From contig JAJUJI010000003.1 in NCBI GenBank assembly GCA_029265405.1, forward strand, positions 62,001 through 126,000: a stretch of 64,000 nt of DNA, written 5' to 3'. The notes below the pieces were generated by a model that saw only the letters and a program-made list of their open reading frames with translations, had not been told where the DNA came from and made no database searches. The position numbers and the translations under genes are program-made. The stretch comes from Clostridiales bacterium (lineage in GTDB: Bacteria > Bacillota > Clostridia > Oscillospirales > Oscillospiraceae). This document shows, in pieces, positions 41,001 through 58,541 of the stretch; positions within the stretch are counted from its first letter, which is position 1, and the number at the start of each line of letters is the position of its first letter.

Positions 41001-44000
41001 ACCGCGTTTCCGAAATCGTCTCCGTGAACCCAGACAAGGTGCTCGTAGTCTTGAGCAAACAGCTCGACCCAGCAGTTGGTTTCCCACATGTTGCCGTAAG
41101 CGTCGTGCAGCTCCGCGCCCATGTTCAGACTGAAGCTGTCGCGCGCCTCGTCCCTGAGCCGGAGCTCCCACACCTTGGAATCCCTGTCGTAGAGCTTCTT
41201 TACCTCAAAACGGCTCCCGAAATTGTGCAGCACGTAGTCCCCCGCCCAATTCTCGGGGTTTACCGCGTCGTTGTAGATAAAATATATGGTCTTTTCCGTG
41301 CCCGGCGTATAGAGGAAATAGTTGGTCCAGTTTTCTTCCGCCGGCCCGTATTTATAATAGGCGGTACCGCTCTGGGCGAAGCCTTCGGCGGGTTCGTAGG
41401 CCTCCGTTTCAGGGTTGTAAACCAGAATGCCCGAGCCGTCCAGCGCCGCGCCGGGCTCGACCTCGACGGCGCAAACAGGCGAGTCGTAAAAACCGACCTC
41501 AGGCAGCTCTACGGAGATGTCCATCGCATATGACTTGCCCTCTCCCGCGTCGCAGCTCAGCCTGTACTTCTTCCACCCGTCGAGCGAGAGCTCGGAGTAA
41601 TAGTCGTATACATAATTATCTAATATCAGATTTTTAACGTAGCTTTGGTCCGGCGCGCCGTTTTCCAGCGCCTCAAGGGCCAGCTCGGAGGCCGGCGCCG
41701 GCGTCAGCTCCCAGCTCTGGCTCTGCTCGTCGAAGCACATGCGGTAGAAGGCAAGCCAGTAGGAGCAGCGCTGGAGCACCAGCGAGTTGACAAGGTCTCC
41801 ATCGCCAGGCTCGTAAACGCCGCTGCCGTCCCAGTTCAGCCATTTAGCGGCAAGCCCCTCGTAGTAGACGTTTCTATCAAAGCTTCCGTTGTTCTCAACG
41901 CTTCCCGTCAGCCACACCTGGCCGCCGTTGTAGCCGCTCATCCTACCGTTGTTTACGGCCTCGCCGGCTATTACCCTCGCCCCGTCGACGGCCTCCAGAT
42001 TGCAGCCGGAATCCGTTATGAGAGCGGAGGCGCTGACGACCGCGCCGTTGTAGGCCTTGGCGTACATGCCGCATTCCAATGTCCCGTTGACCGTGAGGCG
42101 CCTGCCGTCGCCGACCTGGATTGAAAACGGCGCGTACAGATCCGCGTCTATCGTCAGATCGCCTGCCGGCGGCTCCGAATTTTCATTCAGATACCAGTCG
42201 AACATTAGCGACAGCTTGCCGTTTTGATACAGCTCGGGCCTGGCCAGCAGGTCCGCGAAAGCGTTGCTGTCGCCGGCGCCCACATAATAATCGCCGACGC
42301 CCTCCAGCCCGGCAAGCCTGTATGAGCCGTCCTCGACCATATAATACATGCGGTGTATTCCGCTCCCGGCCAGCGCCGCGCCGGCGTCCTTGAGCTTCAG
42401 CGCGCCGTATACGCTCAACGCGCCCTGTACGTTCAGGCTGCCGCTTACGGTCAGCGCTGCGTTTATGTCCGCATAGCCCGGAACCGTTACTGAGCCGTCT
42501 ATCTCCATATCGCGGTTGAATTGGTATCTGTACCACTCCATATCAAGGGATTTCATATCCGCAAAGGCGAAGCCGCAGCCTGGCGAGGAAACGTTTTCGG
42601 GCGTGATCCCTATTATGGCGCCCTGGGCGCTGACCGAGCCGGTTTCTCCAAGCGTAAGGAAGCCGCCTTCCACATCTATCCTGCTTTTCCAGACCCAGCC
42701 GTCGTCTTCAAACACCACCAGCCAGGATGAGGGCTCCACGCCCATCTCGGCGGCCAGCTTGGCGTCCTGGCCGACAAAAACCACGTTATTTTCGCCGACG
42801 GTGTAGTTTGCGGCCTCATCCGCGCTTATAACGATGACATGCTTCCAGGAGCAGGGCGCGGCGGCCTTCAGCTCGCCCTCGACCGTCAAGGACGCGCCTC
42901 CGGACACAAGTACATAGCCCGGCGCCCAGGCTTCGTAATAATAGTCGCGACCGTACTCGGTCTGGTCGCCGACGTTTGTCCAGCCCGTGACCGCAAGCCT
43001 TGCCGCGCGAACGGTAAAACCGCTTTCTATTGCGGCCTCGGCGCCGCCAACAACCAGCAGGTTGGAAACGAGCAGCTCACCGGCCCCGAAGGCCTGACTG
43101 TTCAGACTGAGTTCGGTGCCGCCGCCGCAGATGAAATAGCTGACCGTTTCCAGTTCCGAGGCCGCTTCAATAAGCTGCGGTCCGGCGTTGTAGCCGGCGC
43201 TGCGGGGCGCGAAATAAAGCTCGCGGTAGGAGAGGTTTCTTATGCCGTCGTCCGCATCGTCGCTGTAGCCGCCTATAACACCTCCGAAGGCTTCCTCCCA
43301 GTAGCCTTCCTTTTCAAAGCACAGTCCCTCCATATTGTCCTGGCCGTCCAGGCTCCAATCCGAGCGGACCGTCAGCACGCTGCCCTCGGCTATTCTCAGC
43401 GCCCCGTACCCGCCGCTTTCGCCGTCATACATGAGGGTTATAAGCACGCTTTCCGGCACCGTCGCATCGGCCTCAAAGGTCAGCTCCGCGCCTGGGCGGA
43501 TAAAAACCTTCTTGCAGCGGACATTCTCATCCAGCGCAGGCTCACCGGGCAGCCCGGCAATGCCGAAGCTTCCGGCCACATAAATTTCAGCAAACATGAG
43601 CTCGGCGTCTGTCACGGCTGAATTGAAGTCCTCGGCGCTGGAAACGGAAGCGACGGCTCGCCCCGCCCTGAAGTCCACGTTTTCAAGCGTCACGTTCGCC
43701 AGCGGATCCCGCGAACCGTCCCTTACCGGGCTCCCGTTTTCGTATATGTATTCGCTGCGGCACTTCACCCAGCCGCCGCCGGGCTCCGAGACTATGCGGC
43801 CGCCGGCGGCCCCGTCTTTGTTGAAAACGGCTCCGTCAAGTATCAGCCCGCCATGGTCCACGCCCTCCTGACCGCTTTTGCTAAGCTCGATAACGCCTGA
43901 GGGGTAAAGGCTCGCTTCCCCGCCAAGGATCAATCGGCAGCCCGGCATGACGCGCACCGTGCCGGAAACGCTCAGGGCGGCCTTCTCGTATATGCAGGTG

Positions 44001-45019
44001 TCCTGCATGCAGTACAGATCGGCCCCGGCCTGCACTTCTATGGAGCCGCCGCCTATATTGGAGGCGGCATCGCCCGGCCCGGCCAGCTCGGTGCGGCCGC
44101 TTTCCACGGTCAGAGTCACACCTTCCTCGTAAATGGCCAAGCCGCCGAGAAAACAGAGATTCTTATTTGCCGTCAGCGATTCGGTAAGCTCGACGGCGCG
44201 CGTCACGGTCACGCTTTGGACGCCCCCGTCCTCAAGAGCCTCCTTCAGCTCGGCGAAGTTGAGAACCCTGCGGTCGGTTTCGAAATGCTTCATGCTTACA
44301 AGCCATCTAAGAATATCCGCCCCAGAAACGAGGCTGTCCGGATTGAAGGCGCCGTAGTCGGCCGACAGTATTCCCAGCTCGTAAAGAGTGAGCACGGGAA
44401 CGGAGTACCAGGTTCCCGAGCCCGGCACATCCAAAAGCTCGAAGCTTCCGTCATAGGACGTGTCCGTCCTTCCCAGCATTCTGAAGATCAGCACGCCCGC
44501 CGCCGCCTTGGAAAGCGTGTCGTCAGGATTGAAGTTTCCGTCCGCGTCGCCCTTAAAAAAGCCCATGTCGGCGCACCATAGTATGGCCTTATAGGTTGCG
44601 GTCCCCAGCGCCGCCTCTGACACGTCGGCAAAGGCTGACTGCGCCTCGTAGCCGGATAAAGGCGTCGAGTCCCGGTAAAGGCAGCCGGCCATAAGCTCCG
44701 CCATCTGCGCGCGGGTCACCGCTGCGGTTTCCTCGTTCACAGCGCTGTAGTCCACTATGCCCAGAGCGGCCGCCTCTCCGTACAGCGCGGAGCCGTCCAT
44801 GAGCTCTATTTGCCCTACGTCTTCCGCGACGTCATATATATCGCCGCCGCCCTCCCTTAAGCCCGCCTCGCTGCCGAAGCCTTCCTGCGGCGCGGCAGTA
44901 GCGCCGCCTTCCTCGCCCGGTTCCGCCGCGTCCTCCGCCGAAGCGTAAGGCGTCAGCCCGGAAAAGAGCGAAATGAGCATGCAGGCCGCCAGAAGCAGCG
45001 TCGCCGTTTTCTTTTTCAT
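38060..45019 (-). CDS. Giant SLH-domain surface protein (2319 residues)
   Basis: Signal peptide MKKKTATLLLAACMLISLFSG..., then a Glu/Ala/Gly linker. SLH repeats fill about residues 75-255 (ALYGEAAALGIVD, AFADVSEAALGTATYKAILWCADMGFFKGDADGNFNPDDTLSKAAAG, and LTLYELGILSADYGAFNPDS). Residues 255-1100 are rich in short beta-helix-like turns (repeats such as GASLTVEGELKAAA, NVQGALSVYGALKL), suggesting a long right-handed beta helix. A bacterial pre-peptidase C-terminal-like domain lies near residues 1560-1670. The rest is beta-rich and aromatic. No enzyme motif was seen. It follows the subtilase gene by 47 bases. Start ATG at 45019 has a GGAGGCG site. Confidence 0.9.
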   Translation of the reverse strand: MKKKTATLLLAACMLISLFSGLTPYASAEDAAEPGEEGGATAAPQEGFGSEAGLREGGGDIYDVAEDVGQIELMDGSALYGEAAALGIVDYSAVNEETAAVTRAQMAELMAGCLYRDSTPLSGYEAQSAFADVSEAALGTATYKAILWCADMGFFKGDADGNFNPDDTLSKAAAGVLIFRMLGRTDTSYDGSFELLDVPGSGTWYSVPVLTLYELGILSADYGAFNPDSLVSGADILRWLVSMKHFETDRRVLNFAELKEALEDGGVQSVTVTRAVELTESLTANKNLCFLGGLAIYEEGVTLTVESGRTELAGPGDAASNIGGGSIEVQAGADLYCMQDTCIYEKAALSVSGTVRVMPGCRLILGGEASLYPSGVIELSKSGQEGVDHGGLILDGAVFNKDGAAGGRIVSEPGGGWVKCRSEYIYENGSPVRDGSRDPLANVTLENVDFRAGRAVASVSSAEDFNSAVTDAELMFAEIYVAGSFGIAGLPGEPALDENVRCKKVFIRPGAELTFEADATVPESVLITLMYDGESGGYGALRIAEGSVLTVRSDWSLDGQDNMEGLCFEKEGYWEEAFGGVIGGYSDDADDGIRNLSYRELYFAPRSAGYNAGPQLIEAASELETVSYFICGGGTELSLNSQAFGAGELLVSNLLVVGGAEAAIESGFTVRAARLAVTGWTNVGDQTEYGRDYYYEAWAPGYVLVSGGASLTVEGELKAAAPCSWKHVIVISADEAANYTVGENNVVFVGQDAKLAAEMGVEPSSWLVVFEDDGWVWKSRIDVEGGFLTLGETGSVSAQGAIIGITPENVSSPGCGFAFADMKSLDMEWYRYQFNRDMEIDGSVTVPGYADINAALTVSGSLNVQGALSVYGALKLKDAGAALAGSGIHRMYYMVEDGSYRLAGLEGVGDYYVGAGDSNAFADLLARPELYQNGKLSLMFDWYLNENSEPPAGDLTIDADLYAPFSIQVGDGRRLTVNGTLECGMYAKAYNGAVVSASALITDSGCNLEAVDGARVIAGEAVNNGRMSGYNGGQVWLTGSVENNGSFDRNVYYEGLAAKWLNWDGSGVYEPGDGDLVNSLVLQRCSYWLAFYRMCFDEQSQSWELTPAPASELALEALENGAPDQSYVKNLILDNYVYDYYSELSLDGWKKYRLSCDAGEGKSYAMDISVELPEVGFYDSPVCAVEVEPGAALDGSGILVYNPETEAYEPAEGFAQSGTAYYKYGPAEENWTNYFLYTPGTEKTIYFIYNDAVNPENWAGDYVLHNFGSRFEVKKLYDRDSKVWELRLRDEARDSFSLNMGAELHDAYGNMWETNCWVELFAQDYEHLVWVHGDDFGNAVTEGTAVSGDGWYGAFYLYRQNEQGVWDYAPVPADSLVANGQPLASCSNVTLTEDQSRPGCYTLYFSDIGSYDFGCKSGGQACRYGVSISVTELPYLGPYSAPSADKSLYLNGVDYTSLGTVYMVPANGASLSRMSLAETELVVRGGGTEASSCFKWGDALSFGGFTVTAVDAEGDGNYDYFRVDISASPFSGAYSLELHVRDSNGNEFVAGNASFYSRAEQASSVENGGSLSEGADNASDIGQMAGQAVKYCDFLAQEEGWYAFSLTPEAASGDFGLYVFDKDWRLVALSRRYADSGAALRAAAYLEPGTYYAAVWNGTGGETSGAVMLAVVKSSRPAEPGPENARLVMDAEGVYSLRLSKGSSDAVEYNIYALIDGQWRGRGSRTLYYDAYLGRWNDEDCYLADILQDGETAAAFGVAAVNLDGIESGLYELYPDYPVARSDAEFAGAAEYSVKLSRLPDGQLIAEAAEDGRQVVFGRGEANRVFHYVVGPSNVYCDFESYFGAGNERAQLYGFSQNGLSQYGGGCWAYEISCQKLETSETGGRYIVGWSTAALDYDEGIAGEDYGRIEAADSSCWIVQDDADLSGTNEFRFNYGFSYWYTFNSLRFWLGTYSAERGYSYEEIKSGLSSPDVQLSYDGARWNFDLSGMEEGDAFRLIYDDANGKTASVAATVVHPDLAFFTTAEATKTSFLPDRVCSAQDSFYLVWTGEFAEGRGITGCEVAVYQAAAYDPDSGLTYYLRDEATGEFYAADNLEPDQGCFILGETLLEIDKTHYSENYIMFSNPEHNGDIMVSVSLTDAQNRIVQRRCLWVERAARLNPQGPGRLEGWVAESCPGSLFGVADSGNATQMSAVCTLNENRGLRFSGLYNGRDYYLYRYDGSAWVLVGGVSARCEGGPYIGQPSYGNGKMSVDYGLDASYAGCRLAAASYSGGRMLGVRLLTLDAGSVAGDRIELDLPEGEVYKVFLLSGDGRFDPVALD

Positions 45020-45066: not shown

Positions 45067-46536
45067 TCAGGAAGGCGGATAGGCCGCGCTGGCCGCAAGC
45101 GGCTGAAAACCTGTTCCAAGGAAAAAAAGCCTTTCGGCTGCGCTCCCCCGCTCGTAGCGGCGGCAGAAGCTGCCGGGCAATGCAATAACTGATTCAAGCC
45201 GCCCGGCGGCGGAATAGCGCGCCGCGTATACCCTCAGCTCGGGCGAGAGCGCGGCGACGCTCAGCGTAGTCGCATTGTCGGCCGTCGTCATGTCCCAGAG
45301 AACCGGCAGGTCCGAAAGCAGCCAGTCCAGCCTGACAAAGCCGCAGCCGTAATAGTCGTCGCGCCCGCTGGCTCCTAAATCCATGCAGCGCGCGGTTAGC
45401 TGGGCCTCGAAGCCGGCGGGCGTCAGCCCCGGGTCGCGCTGGAGCATAACAGCGGCGGCGGCCGCAACCGCCGGAGAGGCGTAGGACGTACCCCTGGCGC
45501 CTATATAAGAGCCGCCGGAGACGTAAACCAGCGTGCCGGGAACCGCGCAATCCACCGACACGTTGTAGCAGGAGTAGGTCTGCCAGGAATAGTCGCAGCC
45601 GACGGCGCCCACGCCGACGACGCCGTCGCAGGCCGCGGGATACACCAGCTTGTTTCCAAGCTGCGTTATGTTGCCCGCCGCAGCTACAAGAATGACTCCT
45701 TTGCTCACAGCCTCGTCCAGCTTGGTTTGCAGCAGGTCCGATTTAACCGTGCCGCCGAGGCTCATGTTGACCACCTTGCAGCCGTATTGGTTTATCGCGG
45801 CGTCAAGCCCGGCGATTATGTCGCTGTAGTAGCACTCGCCGTCGCTGTACACGTTTATCGACACTATGCTCGCTCCGGGCGCTATCCCGTCGACGCCTAT
45901 GGCGTTGCCGTTTGCGCCGGCTATTATGTCCGCCACAAGCGTCCCGTGGTTGACGCCGCCCGTTTCCGGTTCAAAAAGCACAGTATTGCCGTTTACCGCG
46001 CAGCGTTCGACCTTAGCCGGGTCGAAGTCGCCGAAATCAAGGTCAAGGCCGTTGTCGATGATTGCGACGCGCACTCCGCTCCCGTCCAGGCCTAAGCTGG
46101 CCGCCGCCGAAGCGCGCATCTGCCCCCTTGCGCCGCCGGAGCCGTATATCTGAGCCAAGGCGGCCGAGCTGTATATGTCGTCGTCGGCCGCCGCCTCCGC
46201 GCGCCAGTCCGGCTCTATCAATTCGACATCTTCGGCCGTTACCAGGCCGTAAAGCAGCATTTCGGCGGGATCGTCGGTTTTGTATATCCCCTCGGCCACC
46301 CGCTCCAATGCTCCCTCGCGGCAGACTGGCTCGGCGTCCTCGTTCAGGCTGATAAGAAAGCCGCTGAACTCGGCCTCCCCGCTTTCCGGGACAGACTCGG
46401 ACAGCAATAAGGCGAGCCTTTCCTCCTCGCTCCCCGCCCCAATTGCCGGGGCCAGGGCCGAAAAAAGACTGGCGGCGCAGATCATCGTCAAGGATAATCT
46501 GCGCGCGAAAGTTTTGAATCTTTTCAGCTTATCCAT
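45067..46536 (-). CDS. Secreted subtilisin-like serine protease (S8 family)
   Basis: 489 residues. Signal region MDKLKRFKTFARRLSLTMICAASLFSALAPAIGA, then a propeptide to about residue 140. All catalytic parts are present: Asp161 in VAIIDNGLD, His197 in GVNHGTLVADIIAG, Asn289 in AAAGNI and Ser351 in RGTSYASPAVAA. A C-terminal stretch of about 100 residues forms a small beta domain of unknown role. No SLH or sortase signal, so it may be released or held by partners. Being upstream of the 2319-residue surface protein gene, it may process surface proteins of this block. The ATG at 46536 is chosen over 46557, which lacks a ribosome site. Confidence 0.92.
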   Translation of the reverse strand: MDKLKRFKTFARRLSLTMICAASLFSALAPAIGAGSEEERLALLLSESVPESGEAEFSGFLISLNEDAEPVCREGALERVAEGIYKTDDPAEMLLYGLVTAEDVELIEPDWRAEAAADDDIYSSAALAQIYGSGGARGQMRASAAASLGLDGSGVRVAIIDNGLDLDFGDFDPAKVERCAVNGNTVLFEPETGGVNHGTLVADIIAGANGNAIGVDGIAPGASIVSINVYSDGECYYSDIIAGLDAAINQYGCKVVNMSLGGTVKSDLLQTKLDEAVSKGVILVAAAGNITQLGNKLVYPAACDGVVGVGAVGCDYSWQTYSCYNVSVDCAVPGTLVYVSGGSYIGARGTSYASPAVAAAAAVMLQRDPGLTPAGFEAQLTARCMDLGASGRDDYYGCGFVRLDWLLSDLPVLWDMTTADNATTLSVAALSPELRVYAARYSAAGRLESVIALPGSFCRRYERGSAAERLFFLGTGFQPLAASAAYPPS

Positions 46537-46579
46537 ATGGCGTTCCAAATCTTGCATTAAAAATAACGGGCGCTTTCAT

Positions 46580-46621: not shown

Positions 46622-49600
46622 TTACTTATTCATATACCGGGTCAGCATCGCGGCCAGCTCCGCCCTTGTTAAGGCGCTTGCGGGCGCGAGAGCGCCGTCT
46701 CGGCCGCCTATCAGTTCCGTCCCGCAGGCCCACCTCATGGCGGCTGCGGCGTATGCGCTGACCGCCGAGGCGTCCTTGTAGGAGCCGATGTCGGTGTTCT
46801 CGCCGGCCGAAACATCCTTGCCCGCCGTCTTGGAATAGCGGTATAGGAAGGCGGCAAACTGCTCGCGCGTCACCGCGCCGGCGGGGTCAAACCTGCCGTC
46901 CGCCACGCCCACGGTTATGCCGTTTGCGTAGGCCCAGTTTACGGCCTCCTTGTACCAATCCTGCGCGAGGTCGCCGAAGCCGGCGTCGGGCGCGCCCTTG
47001 GGGCTGCCCGCCATGCGCCAGAGCACTGTCACGACCATGGCGCGCGAGGCCGTTCCGCCGGGATTGAACTTGCCCTCGGCGACGCCCGTCATGAGCCTCT
47101 CGTCGTACACATACTGCGCGTAGCACTCAAACCAGTCGCCGCTGCGGATATCGTCAAAGCTCTGGGATACTGGAACCGCCTTGTTCTTGAGCACAACAAA
47201 CCTCGAGAGCGAGTCTACGCTGAACACCGCGTTGCCGTCGGCGTCCACCGTGGCTTCTAACACCGTGTAGCCGCCGTCGTCCTTCATGTGCAGCACCGAA
47301 ACCTTCTGCCCGGCGTAGCTCTTGCCCACCGGCAGCCTTACCGTCAGCGTCCCGAAGCCGGAGCTCAGCTTTCCGCCGCCCGCGTAAACGGATATCTCGG
47401 CGGAGGCAAGCGCCGTGTTGCCCGAGAGGACTTTGAAGCCCTTGCCGGCATCGCGCGACTCTGCAACCTTCACCGTTATATCTCCGCCTGAGGAGGCGTC
47501 GGCCAGGCTGCCGAGGCCCTCGGAGGTGAAGCTGACGCTGCCCGCACCGGTAGAGACTGTAAGAGCGGCTTTGCCGGAGGAAACGGCCTTCGCGTCGGAC
47601 GCCGCTATCGTCGCGCCGTCGGACTTGGAGCTTATAACCACCCTGCCGGTTTTGGCCTTGAGCGCGCCGCTAATGCCGCTTGAGGAAACCTTGCCCGTTG
47701 ATGTTCCGATGGTATCGCTGTAGCTTGTCGACGAGCCGCCGGAGGAGCCGCCGGAGGAGCCGCCGGAGGATGTCTTGGTATAGGTCACGCTTCTTTCGGC
47801 GTCCGCCGCTCCCATGGTCACGGTAACCGTCTTTTCGGAGGCCTCGTAGCCGCCGACGCTGGGCGAGGCGACGACGCAGGTGGAGCCGTAGGTCACCGTT
47901 ATGGCTATTTTGCCGCCGCTTACCGTGGCCGTCTGATCCGCGCCGCCGTCTATGGAGTATGAAACCGCCGTTCCGTCGGCTACGGCCGAGCCGAAGCTAA
48001 TCGTAAGGACATAGCTGTTTGCCTCGAAGGTCCCCGCGGCTGTCAGGTCGGCCTGGGGCATGGTTTCGGGCGCATAGCCGCAGTCCCAGCTCCAGCCGCT
48101 GAAGGTGTGGCCCGTTTTTTCCGGCAGGTAGGGCTGGATCGCCGCGCCGGCATCGTATCTGACGAAGCTGTCGGCCTTGCCGTCTATGTAGTAGGTTATC
48201 ATGTAGGCGCCGGAGGAGTAAACGACGCTCTCCTCCGCGTCGCCGCCGATTATGCCGGCAACGACGGGCTTGCTCGCGGTAAAGCCCTCGATTTCCGGCG
48301 AAACCACGCTGTAGGACTCTCCGTAGGCGTAAGAGGCTGCCACCGGCGTGGCGGCCTGAGAGCCGTCGGCATATTTGTATGCTATCGTAAGCGTATAGGT
48401 GTTGGGAGAGTATGTCACGGTTACGGCCCTGTCGGAGGCGCCCATGGTGCCCTCGACTAGCGCCTTGTCGGGCGTGTGGCCGGCAAGGCTTGGCGAAGCC
48501 ACGGAGTAGGACTCGCCATAGGTCCTGTTAAGCGTTGCCGTGGCCGAGGCCGCAGTCCCGTTTTCAAACACATAGTAGACGCTGAGCTTATAGACGTTTG
48601 CCGCATATGTCACGCTTACGGTCCTGCCCTGGGCGTCCATGACGCCGTATACCGAGCTTGCGCTCGCCGTGTAGCCTTCAACCGAAGGCATGGAAACGCT
48701 GTAGGCGGCTCCGTACGGAACGCTGACCGTTATTTTTCCGCCGGATACGGTAGTAGTCTCCGCCCTGCCGTCTGCGGTATATGCAACCGTCCTGCCCTCT
48801 GCGGCATAGCCGCAGTCTATTGTCAGGTCATATTCTGGCGTCGTCTGCACAGAGTAGAGCTTTATCGTGCCGGCGTCGAGAAGCTGCATTCCGTAGGGCT
48901 GCCAGCCGCTGTAGGAGTAGCGCCCGCCGTATGGCGTGCCGGGGTTGTAAGCGCCCATATCGTCAAAGCCGAAATCTGAATACTGCGTATAGTAGTCTTC
49001 ATTGACCAGGTTGCCGTCGCCGTCGATTATTATGTAATCGTAGCGGTACCGGCCGCTTGTGAACTTGCCGCTGACCGTGATATCACAGGCGGGCATCTCG
49101 ACCGGCAGGCCCTCCCAGCCGGACCAGAAGTAGCCGGAGGTGTCGGAATCAAGGCGGTAGGCCTGCGGCGCCCTTATCGCTTCACCGTAAGCGTAGGTTT
49201 GCTTATAGAGCGTCGCGCCCTCGGCCTCGACGGTTTCAGTGGGTATGTCAAAGGTGTCCAGAGAGTAGAGCGAGGGGTCGAGGGCTGAGCCGCCGCCGTC
49301 GGTTATCGTGTAGGTCACCGTGTATTCCTCGGGCCGGTAGGTCAGACTCAGCCTCTTGTCGGACGCGGCGTTATAGGTCAGGTTCACGAGCACCAGGCCG
49401 GGCGAGCCGCTTCCCGTGTTCGTCATGGCGAAAACGCCGTCGGCCCATGAGGCGCTGTAGACGCCCGGCGCGTACTCCACGCCGTCGAGCAGCAGCGCGT
49501 AGCCGCTTATTGCCGGCAGCGCGAGAGTCGTTGAAGCTCCGTAGGCTACGGTTTCGGTCTGGAAGTCGGTCTGCGCGTTGGGCATTGTAAATTCTATTGT

Positions 49601-52600
49601 CAATTCGTATTTGTTGGGAACGTAGACTACACGCAGCGCAGAATCGGCCTTGACCGGCGCCACCAGGCAGCCGCCGGCCGCCGCCTGAGCTCCGTTGACA
49701 AAGGCCGTATAGCCTTCTATGGCCGGTATCGGGACGGAGCAGGAGCCGCCGTAGGCTGCGGCCGCGCTGAAGGAGGGGGCCGCCTCGGAGCCGTCTTCAT
49801 ATTTGTAGCTCGCCGTTACGGTATAGGTCCTGTCGGCATAGGCAAACTGGGCCGTGTAGACGGCGTTGCCTGTCACGTCGGCGACGGTCGGGCTCCAGCC
49901 CTTGAAGGTGTAGATCCTGGCCGAATCGGCCCTTGCGGGCGTTTCGGCGGGCAGGACTATGTCGGCCGCCTTGGTGCCGTACCTGTAGCTTCTTGAGGAC
50001 AGAACGCTTCCGTTGAAGTTCTTGAAGGTAACCGTGTAGTATCTTGCCGCGGCCGTGTATTTGGCGGTGTATTCGGCATCCGCCGCGGCCTTCGGGACGC
50101 TTATGTAGGTCCTGCCGCTTGCCGCGTCGACCCAGCCGGCAAAGGTGTAGGCGTACTCCGCGTCCGCCGCCCTTGAGGCCGCCGGGGCTATGGGCGAGGC
50201 TCCGCCGTCGACAGACTGCACTGACAGCACCGTGCCGTCGTAATTTTTGAATGTGACGGTGTACTGAAGCTCGGCCCGCGCCTCGGCCTTATACTGGGCC
50301 GTATAGACCGCGTCGCCGGTTACGGGGACGATTTCCGGACTCCAGCCCGTAAAGCTGTAGTTGTAGCTGCTGTCGGAAGGCTTGGCGGTGCTGCCGTTAA
50401 ACTTCGGAGTCGCGCCGTAGGCGTACCTTTCCGTGTATACGCCGGAGCCTGTCTCCCAGGCGACGGTGTAGCTCCTTAGCCTTGCCGCATAGACGGCTCT
50501 GAAGCTGATGTTGCCGGTCAGCGTCATGCCCTCGGTGTAGCCGGCATAGCCCGCAAAGGCGTAGGAGTATTGCGCCGTATCGGCTTTTGCAGGGTCGGCG
50601 GCCGGCTTTTCTATCCTGGCCCCGTAGGCGCCGGTGCCGGAGGCAAGCACTGTCGCTCCGTCCTCGTCGTAGAAGGTGTAGGAGTAAACGCCGTCCGTTT
50701 CCTTAAAGGAGGCGTAGGCGGCCGTGTCGGCCGTTATGCCGTAGAGGCTTGCCGCAGCGCTCCCGCCGGGCTCGGCTACCCACCTGTCGAAGGCGTAGCT
50801 CTTGCCTCCGGCCGGAGCCTTGGAGGGCCAGTTGGCCGGATTTGTTCCGTAAGCCGCGTCGCCGCCGTGAGGCACATTTTCTGTGTAAAGCGTCGTGCCG
50901 TTTTCGTTATAATAAACAACCTTGTAAGTATTTATCCTGTACTGGGCCTGGTATACAACGTCGTAGCGCCTAAGCAGGCCGGCCTGCGTATCCTCGTCCG
51001 CGCCCAGCGGAACCACGGTCGCCTTCTTTATTGCCGGCAGCGTGGTGTAAATTATCAGGTTGCCCTGCCCGTCCTTCGTTCCGTCGCTCCAGCCTATGAA
51101 GGTATAGCCTTCCCGCGACGGCACGCTGCCGGGCGCTCTGGCGGCGGAGCCGTACCTGACCGTCTGGTACTCCTCGCCGTCCACCGCGATATAGTCTCCC
51201 TTATAATCCATAAAGGCGACCCTGTAGCTCATCCTCCGGTAAGCGGCCGTATAGGTGACGCTTCCCGTCACTGGCGGCAGCTCCGCGGACGCATATACGT
51301 TAAGATTTCCCGATATGTCGAGGCTGCCGTCCGTCCAGCCGCAGAACTGGTTGCCCTCGCCCGAAAAGCTCTCCGGATCCGGCGCTGCGGCGGGATAAGC
51401 CGGGACGTCGCCGTACGCGCAGGTCTGGGCAAGCGGCTTCTCGTTTCCGACGGCCCAGAGCACCACCGCGCCAACCGGCTCTACGGCCAGCTCTGTCTCA
51501 GCCCCGCCGTAGCTGAAGGTCACCTTCGTCGCCGCCTGCGTGGCCTTGAAGGCGCTCCCGGACAGCCGCGAGCCGTCGTTTCCATAATATATCAGCCTGA
51601 CGAGCGAGGTGACGTCCGCCGTTTCGCCTCCGGCATAGGAAGCCGTTACGGTCAGGCCCGTCATGTCTAGCGGCTGGCCCTCGACATAGCCGCTCGTCTT
51701 GCAGGAGCCGGAGAGGGAAAGGCTCTCAACCTGCCGCTCGGGGACGCTTACAGGCTGGTAGACGGTCTTCTTCACGCCCTTGTAGATGTAGCTGACGGCC
51801 GCATAGGTGTCGCCCGTGTCGAAGGCCGCGCTTCCGTTGGCCCCGCCCTCGATATAGGACACAGTCGCCTTGCCGGTCACATCCTCCGTGCTCTTGTCGC
51901 TATAGGCGGCTATGATTCTCATGCCGGAGGCCGCAAGGTCAAGAATTTCGCCAGCGTAGAAAACGGTGCCGGCCGGGGGGGTGGCTATCGATATGCCGAC
52001 AAGCTCCACGGGCGTTATCTTTACATTGAAAGACGCAGTAATCGACTCGTCCGCCTTGGCCTTAACCGCAACCTTGCGGAAGCCGGCTTCAGGCTCGCCC
52101 ACGCTCAGCTCGTATGCAACCGTTCCCGCGTCGGAGCCGTTGTTGTTTTTGCCGGTTACCGTAAGGACGTCCCCTTCGACTATGCCTCTGGCGATAACCG
52201 AGAGAGCCGTGGTTTCGTAATAGACGGTTTTCTGGGTATAGCTTGCCGCTATGGAGGCCAGGGCGACCGGCGTAACCTCAAGGTTTATGCTCGCGCCGAC
52301 CGCGTTGAAATCGGCCGTGTCGTACGGCGTGAAGGTCAGCTCGTAAGAACCGCTCACGTCCACGGCCGACTTTTTGAAGCTGAGCCTGCCCGGAACGTCC
52401 GCCCCAAGATATTTCGCCGTCCAGCTTATTGAGGGCGTCCTGTCGCCGGCGTAAAGAACGCCGTCATAGGGCTGCACCTCGATCGAGGGCGTAGCCTTGA
52501 GTATCGCGAAGCTCTTTGAAACCGAGCCGCCGAAATTGCCCTTGAAGCTTACCGTCACGGTCGCTGTGCCCGCGTTTATATTCGAGCTATAGCCGAGGGT

Positions 52601-55600
52601 ATAGTCCGTACCCTCGGCAAGGAGCCTTCCGCTCTCCTTGAGCGTCACCTCGGGCGAGGGCGCAAGGGCCGCGCCGGTATAGGTCTGGTCGGCTATGCCG
52701 CTTATATTCACGTCGGCCGCAGTCAGCACCCTGCCGACTATTGAGAAGGTTCTTGTCAGGGTTCCCGTATAGTTGCCCTTGAGCTTTACGGTGGCCGTCG
52801 CAGTGCCGACAGCCGTATTGTTAGAGTATTCGAGGTCGTAGTCCCTGCCCGCCTGGAGGGTGATTAGACCGTATTTTACCGTCGCCGCCGGGGTTACCGG
52901 GCTGCCGGTATATTTCTGGCTCTCTATCGGTTCCACCGCAAGGCCGGTTGCGTCCTTGGGAGTGATGGAGCCCGTAGCCGTGCCGTCGGCCGGCTTTATG
53001 TAGTTGCCCGAGGCCGCGCCGCTTATAGAATATGTAACGGTTATCGTCTTGCCCGTCCCGGCGTCGGCCGTATCGTAGGCTGCGGAGGCCGAAACCGTTA
53101 TATCGTCGCTCCCGGCGCGGTTTGTCATTGCGCCGGGCTTGACATCGGCATAAACCGTGCCGTCGTAAACCTTGGCGGTGGTGAGAACGGGGGCCGACAG
53201 CGCAAGCTGCCTTTTCGCTATGGCAAACGTGAGCGTGCTGCCCGTCAGCCTGTAGTTGCCGTCGTCCGTGCTCGCCGTCGCGCTGTACTCTCCGGCGTCC
53301 CTCGGCGTCCTGTCATAGGCCACCGCAGCCGTCCGCTTCTCTCCGTTCACGCCGTAATATGCGGCGCTAACGGCCCGCACGGTTCCGTCGTAGACAAGGC
53401 CCGAGTAGCCGGAGAACGCTGCGGGAACATCCCTTGGCGCGACGCTCGCGTGCGCCTGGGTCTGCTGGCCCGAGGCGGCAAGGACGTAGTTGGCGCTGTC
53501 GCCGCCCTCAAGCTTAAGCTCGGTTATGGCGACAGGCTTTCCTTCCCCCGCGTCGGGGCTTATAAACGCGCCCTTGGCCGTTGCCGACAGCGCGTCGCCT
53601 TCAAGCTTGCCGCTTAGGACCGCGCCGCCGAAATCCAGCTCGGCCTCGGTTTTGCCGTCGTATGTCTTGCTCTTCGCCGCAATGCCGCTTACCGTTATTT
53701 CCCTTCTGGCTATGGCGGCGCCGCCGGGGGCCGCAACCCCGGAAAGGCCGGTTGCGGAGAGGGAGTAGTTTGCCTTCCATCTGCCGTCAAGCTCTATGCC
53801 GGCCACGTTGACGGTATTGGTTCCAGCCTTGGCGGAGGTCCACTCGAAGGCATATGCGCCAGTTGTGCCGTCTCCGCCGGCTTCGGGAGAGTCTCCGGCC
53901 TTCCAGCCCTCAAGCCGCAGCCTGCCGGAGGCCGCCTTCGTCCCGTCGTAGGTCTTTGATTCGACGCTTTCTAGGGCGGGGGTCAGGGTGGCCTTGCCTA
54001 TGGCTATTTCAAAGGTTTCCTCCAGGGTGACGCCAGCGTAGCCCGGAGTGTCTATGACATAGGCTATCGTAATGGAGCCGGTTCCGGCGTTCTGCACCGT
54101 CTGCGGGTCGCCCTTGAGCTCGAAGCGGCCGACAACCTCGTTCTCGCCCATCTGGGCGACGACGCCCTGCGGCAGGGCCCCGGTTATTACCGCCCCGTTT
54201 TCGGTTCCGTAAACGACGCTCCTGCTTATCTTGTCGCCGACATAGTGGCCGACGGTGTAGGAGGCGTCCTCCTTGAAGACTATTTCGCGGGCCGTTACCG
54301 TCAGCTCCGCGGCTATATCGCTGTAGTTTGCGCTGCTTATCGTAACGATTATCTTATCCGAGTTCTTGTCTTCCGCCGCGCCGTAGCCGAAGCTCAGGCT
54401 CGCCCCGCCGGAAGCCGGCTCCGCGGACGAAACAAAGTTCGCTCCGTCCCCGGCGACCGAGGCCGCGGTTATCCTGGCCCCGGCAAAGCCCTGCTGGGGC
54501 AGCCCGGCAAAGGAGGAAAGGGCGAAGCTCCCCGTGCCTGCAGAGCCGTTGAACACCGTTTTTGTCCCGGTCACCGGGCCGGGGTAGGAGGCCTTGCCTA
54601 TCGAGGCCTTGGCGTCGGCCCCGCTCAGCTCTGTGGCCGAAAGGGTGTAATTGCTTCCCCAGGCGCCGGTCAGCCGGATGTTCTTAACGTTGACGGTGCT
54701 CGTCCCGGCATCCGGCGAGGTCCACTCGAAATCGCCCTCGGCCGCCGGCGCATCGCCGTTGACGGCTCCGTCAAGTACTATAGTTCCGCCCGAGGCCGCC
54801 TTCGTCCCGTCGTAGGTCTTGGAAGCGACGCCGCCCACCGAGGGGACAAGCTCGGCCTTTCCGATATTCAGGGTTATGACAGGCGACCAGGCCGAGCTTT
54901 GGGTGCCCGTGTCAGCCTCGTCCCTGGCCGCAACCTCGCAGACGAAGCTATAGACTCCCGCGCCGACAGTGCCCGGCACCGTCAGCGATGCGGAGGAGCC
55001 GCCGTACGGGACGGCCGTTTTGTTCCCGCCCTGCCCGTCGCAGGCGTACCACCGGTATTCATATGTTATTCCCGCTGTTATGTCGTGGGAGGCAGACACG
55101 GCCAGCGCCGCGGCCTGACCGTAGGTTGCGGAAACCTGGGTTTCGGCGCTCACCTTCGGCGGGGCAATTTTATACGAAACCGCTACTATGGCGTCGGCCG
55201 CCGGCATGGTAAATGAGTATGCCCCACCGGAGGGGAGCAGCTCCTGCGTCCCCAGCATGACCTTGCCAACCTCGTAGCCCTTTGCCGGCGACACGGAAAA
55301 GGCCACGCTGTCGCCTGCCCTGGCGGAGGAGGCTATGTCCGCGGTCCCGTGGGCGCTGACGACGGAAAGGGCGTAGTATCTGGTGACGCTCAGCCTCAGG
55401 ACGGTATACACTCCGCCGCTATAGGCCTTGATGAAGTATTCGCCGCCGGCCGCGCTTTTTGAAACCGTTACCGCGCCGCCCGAAACTGAAACGTCCGTGC
55501 CGGAATATGGCTCCGCGCAGCCCGCATCTTTATAAACGGCGTAGCTAAGGGCCGGAACCGCCATCCCGGCGCCATACTGGTCCCTGGCCGAAAAGCCGCC

Positions 55601-56602
55601 GCTTATGTCGAACGAAAGGTCCTCCGGATCGGAGCTGCGCACGGAAACCGACGCTGCGTTCTGCGAGAAAACCGCCCCGCCGTAAGCTCCGTCGGCAAAA
55701 AGAAGATATGCAAGCTCCGGCGCATCCCTGGTTATAGTCAGTTCCTTTACGCCTTCAGTATAGCCCTGAGCCTGGGCCTTTACTGTGTAAACTCCGGCGG
55801 AAGCCTGGCTGGTTACGGTGACAACGCCGTCGGCCCCTATGGACACGCCGGTTGTTCCTCCCGAGGGTTCCTTGTTTTCCACTGTCCAATTGACGGTTCT
55901 GCCCGGCTCGGGCTCCCCCGCGGCGTCGTAAACCGTGGCGGTAAAGGGAGCGGTCGCGGCGAGGGCGCCCTGCGCTACGGTCGGCACCGCCACGGAAGTC
56001 GCGCCGCCGCCGACGACTATTTCGCTCGTTAGTGCGATGTTTATCGACAGGCCGTTTAAGACCGCCGGTATTTCCGCTTTGTTGAAATCGAAGAACCTTG
56101 TTTTGTAGTCCGTTGTTTTCAGCAGCGCAAAGCCGGCTGCGTCCGCTTCGGTAACCTTGGTTTTGGCGGTTATCTTAATGCGCACTATCCTGCCGGAGGT
56201 TTTGATCACGTTTATATCGTTTTCCTCGTCGTAGGCATAAATGCCTTTTTCCGAGGCCCAGAACAGGCCTATCACCCCTTCGGCGTAGGCCGTGTTTGCA
56301 GTGGGCGAGCAGTCCTGCGGCACCGCGGTCCCCACGGTGAACTTGGAGCTGTCGTAGCCTATGAACATATCGAAGGAGCAAAGCGAATTTTCCAATGCGC
56401 CTGGATTGTTCGCAAAATCCACCCACAGGTAAAAAGAGCCGCCGGGCAAGACCTTCGTAACCGGGGTATTCCCCGCCAAGTCGCCGGTAGCCCTGAGGCT
56501 GACGGTCAGGCTTTCTCCTTCGGCCAGCGCCCACGCGGGGAACAGGCCGAAAACCATCAGAACCGCCAGCAGCAAGGACAAAGTCTTTTTCATTCTTTTC
56601 AT
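46622..56602 (-). CDS. Giant multi-repeat SLH surface protein (3326 residues)
   Basis: Signal peptide MKRMKKTLSLLLAVLMVFGLFPAWALA. Residues 28-195 resemble a cohesin-like beta sandwich (FYLWVDFANNPG..., FDMFIGYDSSKFTVG). Bacterial Ig-like segments follow, then YDG/MBG-type repeats at about 580-1400 (SKTYDGTKAASG occurs twice; PIESQKYTGSPVTPAATV, IADQTYTGAALAPSPEV). InlB/Listeria-Bacteroides-type repeats occupy about 1730-2200 (YTVTFKNYDGTVLS, YTFKGWSPTVADVTGNAVYTAQF), MucBP-like units about 2250-2940, a GGSS linker near 2945-2965, and three SLH domains end the protein (about 3146-3325). No catalytic motif seen. It follows the dockerin gene by ten bases. ATG at 56602 has GGGAGAAG. Confidence 0.92.
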   Translation of the reverse strand: MKRMKKTLSLLLAVLMVFGLFPAWALAEGESLTVSLRATGDLAGNTPVTKVLPGGSFYLWVDFANNPGALENSLCSFDMFIGYDSSKFTVGTAVPQDCSPTANTAYAEGVIGLFWASEKGIYAYDEENDINVIKTSGRIVRIKITAKTKVTEADAAGFALLKTTDYKTRFFDFNKAEIPAVLNGLSINIALTSEIVVGGGATSVAVPTVAQGALAATAPFTATVYDAAGEPEPGRTVNWTVENKEPSGGTTGVSIGADGVVTVTSQASAGVYTVKAQAQGYTEGVKELTITRDAPELAYLLFADGAYGGAVFSQNAASVSVRSSDPEDLSFDISGGFSARDQYGAGMAVPALSYAVYKDAGCAEPYSGTDVSVSGGAVTVSKSAAGGEYFIKAYSGGVYTVLRLSVTRYYALSVVSAHGTADIASSARAGDSVAFSVSPAKGYEVGKVMLGTQELLPSGGAYSFTMPAADAIVAVSYKIAPPKVSAETQVSATYGQAAALAVSASHDITAGITYEYRWYACDGQGGNKTAVPYGGSSASLTVPGTVGAGVYSFVCEVAARDEADTGTQSSAWSPVITLNIGKAELVPSVGGVASKTYDGTKAASGGTIVLDGAVNGDAPAAEGDFEWTSPDAGTSTVNVKNIRLTGAWGSNYTLSATELSGADAKASIGKASYPGPVTGTKTVFNGSAGTGSFALSSFAGLPQQGFAGARITAASVAGDGANFVSSAEPASGGASLSFGYGAAEDKNSDKIIVTISSANYSDIAAELTVTAREIVFKEDASYTVGHYVGDKISRSVVYGTENGAVITGALPQGVVAQMGENEVVGRFELKGDPQTVQNAGTGSITIAYVIDTPGYAGVTLEETFEIAIGKATLTPALESVESKTYDGTKAASGRLRLEGWKAGDSPEAGGDGTTGAYAFEWTSAKAGTNTVNVAGIELDGRWKANYSLSATGLSGVAAPGGAAIARREITVSGIAAKSKTYDGKTEAELDFGGAVLSGKLEGDALSATAKGAFISPDAGEGKPVAITELKLEGGDSANYVLAASGQQTQAHASVAPRDVPAAFSGYSGLVYDGTVRAVSAAYYGVNGEKRTAAVAYDRTPRDAGEYSATASTDDGNYRLTGSTLTFAIAKRQLALSAPVLTTAKVYDGTVYADVKPGAMTNRAGSDDITVSASAAYDTADAGTGKTITVTYSISGAASGNYIKPADGTATGSITPKDATGLAVEPIESQKYTGSPVTPAATVKYGLITLQAGRDYDLEYSNNTAVGTATATVKLKGNYTGTLTRTFSIVGRVLTAADVNISGIADQTYTGAALAPSPEVTLKESGRLLAEGTDYTLGYSSNINAGTATVTVSFKGNFGGSVSKSFAILKATPSIEVQPYDGVLYAGDRTPSISWTAKYLGADVPGRLSFKKSAVDVSGSYELTFTPYDTADFNAVGASINLEVTPVALASIAASYTQKTVYYETTALSVIARGIVEGDVLTVTGKNNNGSDAGTVAYELSVGEPEAGFRKVAVKAKADESITASFNVKITPVELVGISIATPPAGTVFYAGEILDLAASGMRIIAAYSDKSTEDVTGKATVSYIEGGANGSAAFDTGDTYAAVSYIYKGVKKTVYQPVSVPERQVESLSLSGSCKTSGYVEGQPLDMTGLTVTASYAGGETADVTSLVRLIYYGNDGSRLSGSAFKATQAATKVTFSYGGAETELAVEPVGAVVLWAVGNEKPLAQTCAYGDVPAYPAAAPDPESFSGEGNQFCGWTDGSLDISGNLNVYASAELPPVTGSVTYTAAYRRMSYRVAFMDYKGDYIAVDGEEYQTVRYGSAARAPGSVPSREGYTFIGWSDGTKDGQGNLIIYTTLPAIKKATVVPLGADEDTQAGLLRRYDVVYQAQYRINTYKVVYYNENGTTLYTENVPHGGDAAYGTNPANWPSKAPAGGKSYAFDRWVAEPGGSAAASLYGITADTAAYASFKETDGVYSYTFYDEDGATVLASGTGAYGARIEKPAADPAKADTAQYSYAFAGYAGYTEGMTLTGNISFRAVYAARLRSYTVAWETGSGVYTERYAYGATPKFNGSTAKPSDSSYNYSFTGWSPEIVPVTGDAVYTAQYKAEARAELQYTVTFKNYDGTVLSVQSVDGGASPIAPAASRAADAEYAYTFAGWVDAASGRTYISVPKAAADAEYTAKYTAAARYYTVTFKNFNGSVLSSRSYRYGTKAADIVLPAETPARADSARIYTFKGWSPTVADVTGNAVYTAQFAYADRTYTVTASYKYEDGSEAAPSFSAAAAYGGSCSVPIPAIEGYTAFVNGAQAAAGGCLVAPVKADSALRVVYVPNKYELTIEFTMPNAQTDFQTETVAYGASTTLALPAISGYALLLDGVEYAPGVYSASWADGVFAMTNTGSGSPGLVLVNLTYNAASDKRLSLTYRPEEYTVTYTITDGGGSALDPSLYSLDTFDIPTETVEAEGATLYKQTYAYGEAIRAPQAYRLDSDTSGYFWSGWEGLPVEMPACDITVSGKFTSGRYRYDYIIIDGDGNLVNEDYYTQYSDFGFDDMGAYNPGTPYGGRYSYSGWQPYGMQLLDAGTIKLYSVQTTPEYDLTIDCGYAAEGRTVAYTADGRAETTTVSGGKITVSVPYGAAYSVSMPSVEGYTASASSVYGVMDAQGRTVSVTYAANVYKLSVYYVFENGTAASATATLNRTYGESYSVASPSLAGHTPDKALVEGTMGASDRAVTVTYSPNTYTLTIAYKYADGSQAATPVAASYAYGESYSVVSPEIEGFTASKPVVAGIIGGDAEESVVYSSGAYMITYYIDGKADSFVRYDAGAAIQPYLPEKTGHTFSGWSWDCGYAPETMPQADLTAAGTFEANSYVLTISFGSAVADGTAVSYSIDGGADQTATVSGGKIAITVTYGSTCVVASPSVGGYEASEKTVTVTMGAADAERSVTYTKTSSGGSSGGSSGGSSTSYSDTIGTSTGKVSSSGISGALKAKTGRVVISSKSDGATIAASDAKAVSSGKAALTVSTGAGSVSFTSEGLGSLADASSGGDITVKVAESRDAGKGFKVLSGNTALASAEISVYAGGGKLSSGFGTLTVRLPVGKSYAGQKVSVLHMKDDGGYTVLEATVDADGNAVFSVDSLSRFVVLKNKAVPVSQSFDDIRSGDWFECYAQYVYDERLMTGVAEGKFNPGGTASRAMVVTVLWRMAGSPKGAPDAGFGDLAQDWYKEAVNWAYANGITVGVADGRFDPAGAVTREQFAAFLYRYSKTAGKDVSAGENTDIGSYKDASAVSAYAAAAMRWACGTELIGGRDGALAPASALTRAELAAMLTRYMNK
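47734..47769 (-). repeat. 12-bp tandem repeat encoding a Gly-Gly-Ser-Ser linker
   Basis: The unit GAGCCGCCGGAG is repeated three times inside the giant gene and encodes SGGS repeats between the MucBP-like region and the C-terminal domains. Confidence 0.8.
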
Positions 56603-56612
56603 ATTCTTCTCC

Positions 56613-57254
56613 CTATTGCCAGGTCGCTATCAATTTGGCGGCGTATTTAAGTATCTGCAGAGCGTCCGTCGAGCTTACGGAGCCGTCCCCCGTAACGTCC
56701 GCCGCCAAGCGCTGCCTTTCGGTCGGCGTGTCAAGCTTCGCCGCGATTTTAAGCGCCATCAGCGCGTCCAACGAGTTTATGCTTCCGTCGTTGTTCACAT
56801 CGCCGAGGGTGTATGGCGTATAGTAGCCGTACTCGGCAAGCTTCAGCAGCCCGCCGGCTTCGGTTATATACACCTTCCCTCCGGAAACGACGCTCATGGG
56901 GTATACATTGAACTCCACAACGCTTCCGGCTGCCTCGGCCTGGTCTATGTACATTATGGTGTCCTCCGTGGGCGTCGTTTCGCCGCCCTTTAAAACGAAT
57001 ATCACATAGCTCTTTCCGGGTAACGCGGCGCTGTAGGTGATTTTGAAGCGCACCCCGTCGGGGTAGACTCCAAACTCGTCCGGCACGCTCTCCGTCGTAC
57101 CGTCGGCCATGTACACAGTTACCGCCGTTGTTCCCGGATCGGCGACGGCAAGCCCGCTTATTCCCGTATTTTCCGAATAGTCCGCCGCCAGCGCGGCCAG
57201 ACATAATAAAACGGAAAAACACAGCGCGAAAAACGCAATCCTCAAATGCTTCAT
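56613..57254 (-). CDS. Dockerin-domain secreted protein
   Basis: 213 residues. Signal peptide MKHLRIAFFALCFSVLLCLAALA. Residues 25-145 are a small beta domain (ISGLAVADPGTTAVTVYMADGTTESVPDEFG...) I cannot assign. Residues 150-209 are a type I dockerin: two calcium F-hand repeats GDVNNDGSINSLDALMALK and ADVTGDGSVSSTDALQILK, with recognition positions 10-11 being Ser-Leu and Ser-Thr. Dockerins bind cohesins tightly outside the cell. The protein lies between a cohesin-SLH gene and the giant SLH gene on the same strand, which suggests the partner is close by. No glycoside hydrolase domain is present. ATG at 57254 has a GGGGGAAAG site. Confidence 0.93.
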   Translation of the reverse strand: MKHLRIAFFALCFSVLLCLAALAADYSENTGISGLAVADPGTTAVTVYMADGTTESVPDEFGVYPDGVRFKITYSAALPGKSYVIFVLKGGETTPTEDTIMYIDQAEAAGSVVEFNVYPMSVVSGGKVYITEAGGLLKLAEYGYYTPYTLGDVNNDGSINSLDALMALKIAAKLDTPTERQRLAADVTGDGSVSSTDALQILKYAAKLIATWQ

Positions 57255-57290
57255 CAGTCTTTCCCCCAGTAAATGCTGTCTGTATTTATA

Positions 57291-58478
57291 TCAACTGAAT
57301 CTCTCCAGATAACGCGCGATAATAGCCGCAACCTGCGCTCTTGTGGCCGGGCTCTTCGGCGAAAGCTCGGTTTCCGTCACGCCGTTTATTATTTTGTGGT
57401 AGACGGCCCAATACATGGGCTCCCTTCCCCATTCGGCCAGCTCTGCGCTGTCGGCATACAGGCCGTCGTAGATTGCGCCCAGCAAGGCCGCCTCCCCGGA
57501 AACGCCCCCGCTGTAGCGGAAGAGCATGGCCGCCAGCTCCTGCCTGGTCACAGGGCTGTCCGGCGAAAAGCTCAGGCCGCCCGTGCCCTTTATGTAGCCC
57601 TTTTCCGAAGCCCAGGCCGCCGCCTTTTCATACCATGCAGCCCTTATGTCCCTGAAGCCGCTCGCTCCGGAGGATTCGGGCTTTCCCGCCATCCTCCAGA
57701 GGACGACGGCAAACTGCGCCCTCGTCATGTTGTCGTCCGGCCTGAAGCGCCCGTCCTCAAAGCCTGTCATCAGGCCAAGGCCCGCCGCCTTTTCTATATA
57801 GGGAGCGGCCCAGTGCCCGGCTGTGTCGGCAAACAGATATGCGGGGCTGTTCAAGCCGCCGGAGCCCGTGGCGGCGCCGCCGGAACCCGGCCCCGGATTT
57901 GCGCCGGGAGACGAACCGGAATTTGCGCCGCCGCCTCCGCCCGAGCCGCCGGCGCCGGATGTTGCGTCTACAGCGGCGACACTGTCGGCAAGCGCGGTAT
58001 AGGCCAGCTCGTTGTAATCAATGTCGCAAAAGGCCTCCACGTCTACGGACAGGCGCGCCTCGCCCTTCCCGATGACCTTGAAGGTAAGCGCCGCAAGGGG
58101 CCCGTCGCCCCGTATCTCGTCCGTCGTGGCGGCGGCCACCGTTATCGCCCCGTCGTCCTCGGAGTTGCAGGCGGTTATCGCCGCTTTTTTCAGCAGCTCC
58201 CCCAGCCGGCAGCCTGTGCAGGAGAGAACGGCCGTATCGTATACGAGGTCGAACTGGAGTGCCGCAAAGCCGGGATTCTCCGCAAGGCTCACCGTAACAG
58301 TCAGCGTGTCGCCGACGGCCGGGCTGAGCCCTCCCGCCGCGCAATAAATACGCGCCGCGCCGGCTGCCAGGGCCGGCGCGGCGCAGTTGACAAACGGAAT
58401 CAGTACCGCCAGCGCGAGCGCAAGCGAGACTGCCTTTACGCATCGTGTTGTTTTAGCGATTAATCCGTTGAGCTTCAT
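57291..58478 (-). CDS. Cohesin-SLH anchoring protein
   Basis: 395 residues. Signal peptide CVKAVSLALALAVLIPFVNCAAPALAA. Residues about 40-165 form a cohesin domain: LSPAVGDTLTVTVSLAENPGFAALQFDLVYDTAVLSCTG, DGPLAALTFKVIGKGEARLSV. A Gly/Ser-rich linker (about 170-200) leads to three SLH repeats (YLFADTAGHWAAPYIEKAAGLGLMTGFEDGRFRPDDNMTRAQFAVVLWRMA and two more). It resembles small cell-surface anchoring proteins of cellulosome systems (SdbA/OlpA-like), with one cohesin on a wall anchor. Start ATG at 58478 has a GGAGAG site. It is the first gene of the minus-strand surface block and has a strong promoter. Confidence 0.93.
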   Translation of the reverse strand: MKLNGLIAKTTRCVKAVSLALALAVLIPFVNCAAPALAAGAARIYCAAGGLSPAVGDTLTVTVSLAENPGFAALQFDLVYDTAVLSCTGCRLGELLKKAAITACNSEDDGAITVAAATTDEIRGDGPLAALTFKVIGKGEARLSVDVEAFCDIDYNELAYTALADSVAAVDATSGAGGSGGGGGANSGSSPGANPGPGSGGAATGSGGLNSPAYLFADTAGHWAAPYIEKAAGLGLMTGFEDGRFRPDDNMTRAQFAVVLWRMAGKPESSGASGFRDIRAAWYEKAAAWASEKGYIKGTGGLSFSPDSPVTRQELAAMLFRYSGGVSGEAALLGAIYDGLYADSAELAEWGREPMYWAVYHKIINGVTETELSPKSPATRAQVAAIIARYLERFS

Positions 58479-58541
58479 AAACTCTCCATTCCGGTTTAAG
58501 TGAAGTTTACAATTTATTTTCAAATAATCCATTTTTTATTT

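Follow-up and report, generated by a model that had tools for sequence, protein, structure and literature searches.

A recurrent three-gene cassette of gut clostridia encodes a candidate enzyme-free cohesin–dockerin system of the cell surface

Three adjoining genes, here called A, D and T, in a 64,000-nucleotide stretch of a clostridial genome (the window) encode a cohesin-bearing wall anchor, a small dockerin protein and a giant surface protein, respectively (Table 1). We propose that they form a private, enzyme-free cohesin–dockerin system in which gene D ties the cohesin at the tip of the giant protein (CohT) to the anchor made up of a cohesin (CohA) and SLH repeats, the whole serving as a surface adhesin; we hold this reading about as likely to be right as wrong. 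The three genes lie on one strand and follow each other in the order A, D, T in the direction of transcription, with spacers of 36 and 10 nt, and the initial annotation had given their coordinates exactly. It had also described the block as free of glycoside hydrolases, and domain annotation of the three proteins with Pfam likewise recognized no catalytic domain, glycoside hydrolase included.

Table 1. Positions in the window of the A, D and T genes, their domains and the next gene downstream
Feature	Coordinates	Strand	Details
Gene A, secreted cohesin–SLH wall anchor	57291..58478	-	395 aa; Pfam Cohesin E 1.5e-12 and three SLH repeats
CohA, cohesin domain of gene A, residues 40-172	57963..58361	-	Pfam and fold comparison
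SLH repeats of gene A (three)	57306..57833	-	Pfam
Gene D, small secreted protein, N-domain and dockerin	56613..57254	-	213 aa, signal peptide
N-domain of gene D, residues 25-147	56814..57182	-	No Pfam or NCBIfam name
Type I dockerin of gene D, residues 150-205	56640..56807	-	Pfam Dockerin_1 E 1.8e-14; recognition dipeptides SL, ST
Gene T, giant surface protein	46622..56602	-	3326 aa; N-terminal cohesin, YDG/MucBP/InlB-type repeats, three C-terminal SLH repeats
CohT, divergent cohesin at the N terminus of gene T, about residues 29-190	56033..56518	-	Profile, profile–profile and fold comparison
C-terminal SLH repeats of gene T (three)	46628..47158	-	Pfam
Secreted S8 subtilase, next downstream of gene T	45067..46557	-	Pfam; membership of the system uncertain

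The order and strand of A, D and T are kept in 17 sampled genomes, the window's included, which belong to three families of one clostridial order. Gaps between the cassette genes range from -26 to +63 nt across these genomes; some of the 17 cassettes, which were identified by reading the loci, are cut by contig ends. Searches with the N-domain of gene D, in up to 400 genomes each for the order and the family, gave strong matches in 8 of the 394 genomes from the order and some match in 24 of the 400 from the family, and in a phylum-wide sample the matches outside the window's genome were all weak. Strong matches to the N-domain lie in cassettes, and its weak relatives lie beside other dockerins. 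When named genomes were searched with a three-row alignment, two loci only were returned. The cohesin-like start of gene T is retained in nearly all cassettes, while its middle is variable, with Fn3, YDG or other repeats; the length of complete copies runs from 459 to 3326 residues. As a separate observation, distant relatives of the N-domain are fused to dockerins at three non-cassette loci (L123, L125 and L126) in another family of the same order.

Gene A encodes, in order, a signal peptide, a single cohesin, a Ser/Gly linker and three SLH repeats, which agrees with the wall-anchored single cohesin read there in the initial annotation; an alternative ATG upstream, at 58532, would extend the product to 413 aa. 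The CohA model (pLDDT 80-92) has its best structural match in 2xdh, a non-cellulosomal cohesin of Archaeoglobus fulgidus (Z 18.0), and it matches 1g1k, a cohesin of C. cellulolyticum, with Z 17.6. By its predicted fold, CohA is thus a plain type I cohesin, a beta-sandwich near solved cohesins. Surface anchors bearing one cohesin are known from Clostridium thermocellum, and CohA resembles the OlpA/OlpC-type cohesins of that species (3ul4 and 4dh2; Z 16.3 and 16.7) in being one type I cohesin on a surface anchor. Theirs, however, is part of a cellulosome, whereas the partner here has no recognized enzyme domain and the window's genome has two dockerins.

In gene T, Pfam recognized three SLH repeats, four YDG repeats, MucBP and Flg_new; by Pfam alone, no cohesin was called at the N terminus, where the initial annotation had seen a cohesin-like sandwich within the first 165 residues. 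Other comparisons bore out that view. In held-out scoring, with the window sequence excluded from the model and signal peptides removed, a model built from this region of the other cassettes gave CohT 23.0 bits, where none of 200 shuffles exceeded 4.3; a general cohesin model gave it 14.2 bits, the highest-scoring shuffle reaching 9.1. In profile–profile comparison, the CohT family profile matched cohesins with 97.3% probability (E 1.7e-11), and its significant matches in the PDB were cohesins, from E 3e-7. At the same position, protein T of one relative (G067, from a family for which three genomes were sampled) passes the Pfam cohesin threshold, with 25.6 bits against a cut-off of 24.1. Comparison of the predicted CohT fold returned cohesins as its first 49 entries, with Z up to 11.8, the first non-cohesin having Z 7.8; we treat this model as supporting evidence because its confidence is low (pLDDT 56, pTM 0.61) and its input alignment included true cohesins. 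Taken together, the profiles and the predicted fold indicate that the N terminus of gene T belongs to the cohesin fold. CohA and CohT are 18.2% identical within a genome and 17.8% identical across genomes, and since they are no more alike within than across genomes, nothing points to gene conversion between the two.

The genome that contains the window (2.48 Mb, 98.8% complete) holds two dockerins only, as judged by a genome-wide Pfam search. Pfam finds dockerins and cohesins in two places each, the A–D–T block and one other locus. The sole additional significant match of a wider cohesin profile was an internal domain of a 1892-aa protein, and the cohesins of this genome, three by profile plus CohT, are all single. 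Cohesin profiles found no multi-cohesin scaffoldin in the genome, and by Pfam neither of the two dockerins sits on a recognized glycoside hydrolase. The ordinary cellulosome that the initial annotation had allowed for elsewhere in the genome is ruled out, since a cellulosome is not compatible with just two dockerins. The second locus (L005:4115-11643, on contig C2, outside the window) encodes the 1892-aa protein, which is secreted, followed by a 576-aa cohesin–SLH anchor. Besides its internal cohesin-like domain, the 1892-aa protein has a terminal dockerin and shows metallophosphoesterase-like motifs by eye, with no Pfam call for them; a cohesin and a dockerin on one chain could lead to self-assembly. 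Anchoring by SLH is common in this genome, which encodes 54 SLH repeats and has two family-level matches to polysaccharide pyruvyl transferase, candidates for the CsaB-type pyruvylation gene expected alongside SLH anchors.

Type I dockerins are marked by two calcium loops, with side-chain ligands at positions 1, 3, 5, 9 and 12, followed by helices, and they present two equivalent cohesin-facing surfaces. The dockerin of gene D fits the type I description: both loops, DVNNDGSINSLD and DVTGDGSVSSTD, are intact with their ligands and lead into helices. Together with the Dockerin_1 match (Table 1), this confirms the secreted dockerin protein that had been placed ten bases before the giant gene. 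Across its two repeats, the window's dockerin has SL and ST at contact positions 10-11 and lysine in both at position 18. Using the cohesin-contact positions of type I dockerins given in PMC4728124, we found that repeat symmetry among the cassette dockerins is 71-94% at contact positions 10, 11, 17, 18, 21 and 22, compared with 29-47% at positions 7, 8, 15, 16 and 19. Positions 10-11 match between the repeats in 28 of 34 cases (mean of 20,000 shuffles, 4.5; maximum, 16), and repeat 1 carries 16 distinct dipeptides there among 17 genomes. Contacts that are near-identical between repeats yet vary by genome are, as far as sequences can tell, the signature of a functional dual-mode dockerin. The presence of cellulosome-rich relatives in the same order raises the idea that the cassette is a remnant of a lost cellulosome, now functionless, which we consider very improbable: the three-gene unit is conserved in three families with its frames intact, and dockerin contacts that are kept symmetric while changing fast need continuing selection.

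We further compared the domains for covariation in sets of 15-16 cassettes. The first test, with whole-domain maximum-likelihood tree distances, gave no relation between dockerin and CohT (r 0.08, p 0.33), a negative one between dockerin and CohA and a weak one between N-domain and CohA. With the literature-defined dockerin contacts in 16 genomes, the dockerin followed CohT (r 0.51, p 0.0002) but neither CohA (r -0.03) nor the N-domain (r -0.11); the p-values for contact residues are exploratory, because they were obtained after the null whole-domain test. At non-contact dockerin positions the relation to CohT was weaker (r 0.27, p 0.008). When the contact set was widened slightly, the dockerin–CohT result held; it was robust to leave-one-out, to a change of alignment method and to the identity measure, and it survived controls by the SLH repeats of both A and T. 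Most of the signal comes from position 18, where glutamine occurs in 7 of 8 cassettes that have one CohT subtype and in none of the 8 that have other subtypes. These comparisons support a pairing of the dockerin with CohT of the giant protein and not with CohA of the anchor. An AlphaFold model of an in-frame A and D read-through fusion had pTM 0.30, too low for an interface to be read, so docking is not readable from it.

The giant's cohesin could also serve partners outside the cassette. CohT sits at what is presumed to be the outer end of this very large surface protein, and the order also includes dockerin-rich genomes; CohT might then act as a hook that faces outward and catches dockerin proteins made by other gut bacteria, for instance cellulosomal enzymes, with gene D as a plug or placeholder. 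We think this improbable, since the adjoining dockerin covaries with CohT and varies by genome, which points to a private pair.

The N-domain showed a different pattern: it followed CohA (r 0.64; given the SLH repeats of A, r 0.49, p 0.0002) and did not follow CohT. Once one of two sister species was dropped, its relation to CohA was r 0.29, p 0.029, and the N-domain and CohA each track the SLH repeats of A, with r about 0.55. The covariation between N-domain and CohA may therefore come from shared descent.

In the private system proposed above, gene A would place CohA on the cell wall via its SLH repeats, and gene T would supply a giant wall-attached repeat protein that carries CohT at the N terminus, far from the wall. 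Gene D would be a secreted adaptor whose dockerin docks on CohT and whose N-domain would then be held at, or bind, the CohA–SLH anchor. The adaptor would in this way link the giant's tip to a wall anchor, of the same cell or of a neighbour. Because a dockerin normally engages a single cohesin at any one moment, bridging would require the N-domain as a second binding head. We infer that the N-domain is such a head, with CohA as its contact, and that the product has a role in adhesion or in layering of the surface. A more far-reaching version, which we offer tentatively and with some doubt, makes the N-domain a new cohesin- or anchor-binding module and the dockerin a clamp that would lock the giant's tip to a second wall protein, the outcome being an enzyme-free, self-assembling surface layer made from components of the cellulosome.

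Natural variants of the cassette bear on this arrangement. In one genome (G206), gene A has three SLH repeats only and has lost its cohesin, whereas CohT, dockerin and N-domain are retained. Protein T of G067 consists of CohT and Fn3-type repeats and has no SLH; it therefore lacks an SLH route of its own to the wall and would need an adaptor. A third genome (G129) has an extra protein in which CohT occurs twice, with 78% and 54% identity to the giant's copy, together with a dockerin whose recognition residues, VS/VS, are the same as those of gene D there. The initial annotation had proposed that the dockerin protein bridges two anchored proteins. The dockerin–CohT covariation, the N-domain–CohA covariation and the G206 and G067 variants lend this proposal indirect support; the bridge itself we infer. 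G206 counts against the two-headed reading in one respect, as it keeps the N-domain though its anchor is without CohA.

The main rival is simple display, in which the N-domain would be cargo and the dockerin would attach it to any unoccupied cohesin, be it CohA close to the wall or CohT on the giant's tip, with no bridge. This reading agrees with the dockerin's normal hold on a single cohesin, and it gains from two other arrangements. In G460, next to an SLH protein of 3003 residues, an N-domain-like region (a weak match, E 1.5e-4) is fused directly with a set of three SLH repeats, and such a fusion would display the region with no need of cohesin or dockerin; and the second locus of the window's genome is a simple pair of a large dockerin protein and a cohesin–SLH anchor. 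We also count the G460 fusion, weak as the match is, for the adaptor reading. Simple display nevertheless leaves the SLH-less, cohesin-bearing protein T of G067 without a route to the wall, and the dockerin contacts do not covary with CohA. We judge it unlikely, though it deserves more weight than the outward hook or the remnant.

Other cohesin–dockerin arrangements were seen in the course of these searches. In a relative (G014), two dockerin proteins adjoin a protein of 1202 aa in which six cohesin-like domains are combined with three SLH repeats (L072:5829-14144); in the single dockerin protein scanned there, Pfam sees only the dockerin. At four loci in relatives (L067, L068, L069 and L071), one dockerin protein with SH3, Cadherin-like or Big_3 and InlB-type repeats adjoins one cohesin protein. 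Minimal enzyme-free cohesin–dockerin pairs may be common in this order. As for the surroundings of the cassette, S8 genes like the subtilase downstream of gene T also lie near it in L064, L065 and L109. A C-terminal region some 70 residues long, with the pattern A-x-Y-x-x-x-G-[RK]-[ML] ... F-x-L ... P, is common to the window's subtilase, the window protein at 38060-45019 and secreted neighbours in L064, L065, L109 and L110. The proteins that share it are S8 subtilases, transglutaminase-like, LRR and large repeat proteins, and held-out scores reached 43 bits, the match being weak for the 2319-aa window protein; the region is possibly a common surface or sorting module.

Several known systems resemble the cassette in part. 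Non-cellulosomal cohesins and dockerins were catalogued earlier (Peer et al. 2009, cited in PMC9012536). Going by that citation, the catalogue shares with our case single cohesins and dockerins outside cellulosomes, and differs in that a fixed three-gene cassette with two cohesin types on SLH proteins and a small adaptor is the arrangement here. Few-cohesin systems, for example in Paenibacillus guangzhouensis (Minor et al. 2024, PMC11557425), have SLH anchors and cohesin–dockerin adaptors and likewise stand outside classic cellulosomes, but they were found via dockerin-bearing glycoside hydrolases and multi-cohesin proteins, and the cassette has neither. For ANME archaea, dockerin/cohesin and S-layer–dockerin proteins have been described and cell–cell contact suggested (Chadwick et al. 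2022, PMC9012536). Surface-layer proteins are joined there, too, by cohesin and dockerin; the domain of life and the architecture are different, and a giant SLH adhesin with a terminal cohesin is not among the proteins described in the sections of that paper that we cite. The amylosome of Ruminococcus bromii (Sas20, PMC9112005) is reported as another gut clostridial cohesin–dockerin complex, including a flexible binding protein, but unlike the cassette it binds and degrades starch. In the literature searched, outside which most subscription papers fell, we found no description of the three-gene unit.

The role of non-cellulosomal cohesins and dockerins has been a question since they were first listed, and the cassette supplies a few small soluble domains with which to approach it. 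It is a defined, recurring gene unit, present in at least 17 genomes of uncultured gut clostridia, that would use cohesin–dockerin pairing for surface architecture and not for enzyme assembly. Because each genome has its own recognition residues, the family may be a source of ready-made orthogonal cohesin–dockerin pairs for protein assembly.
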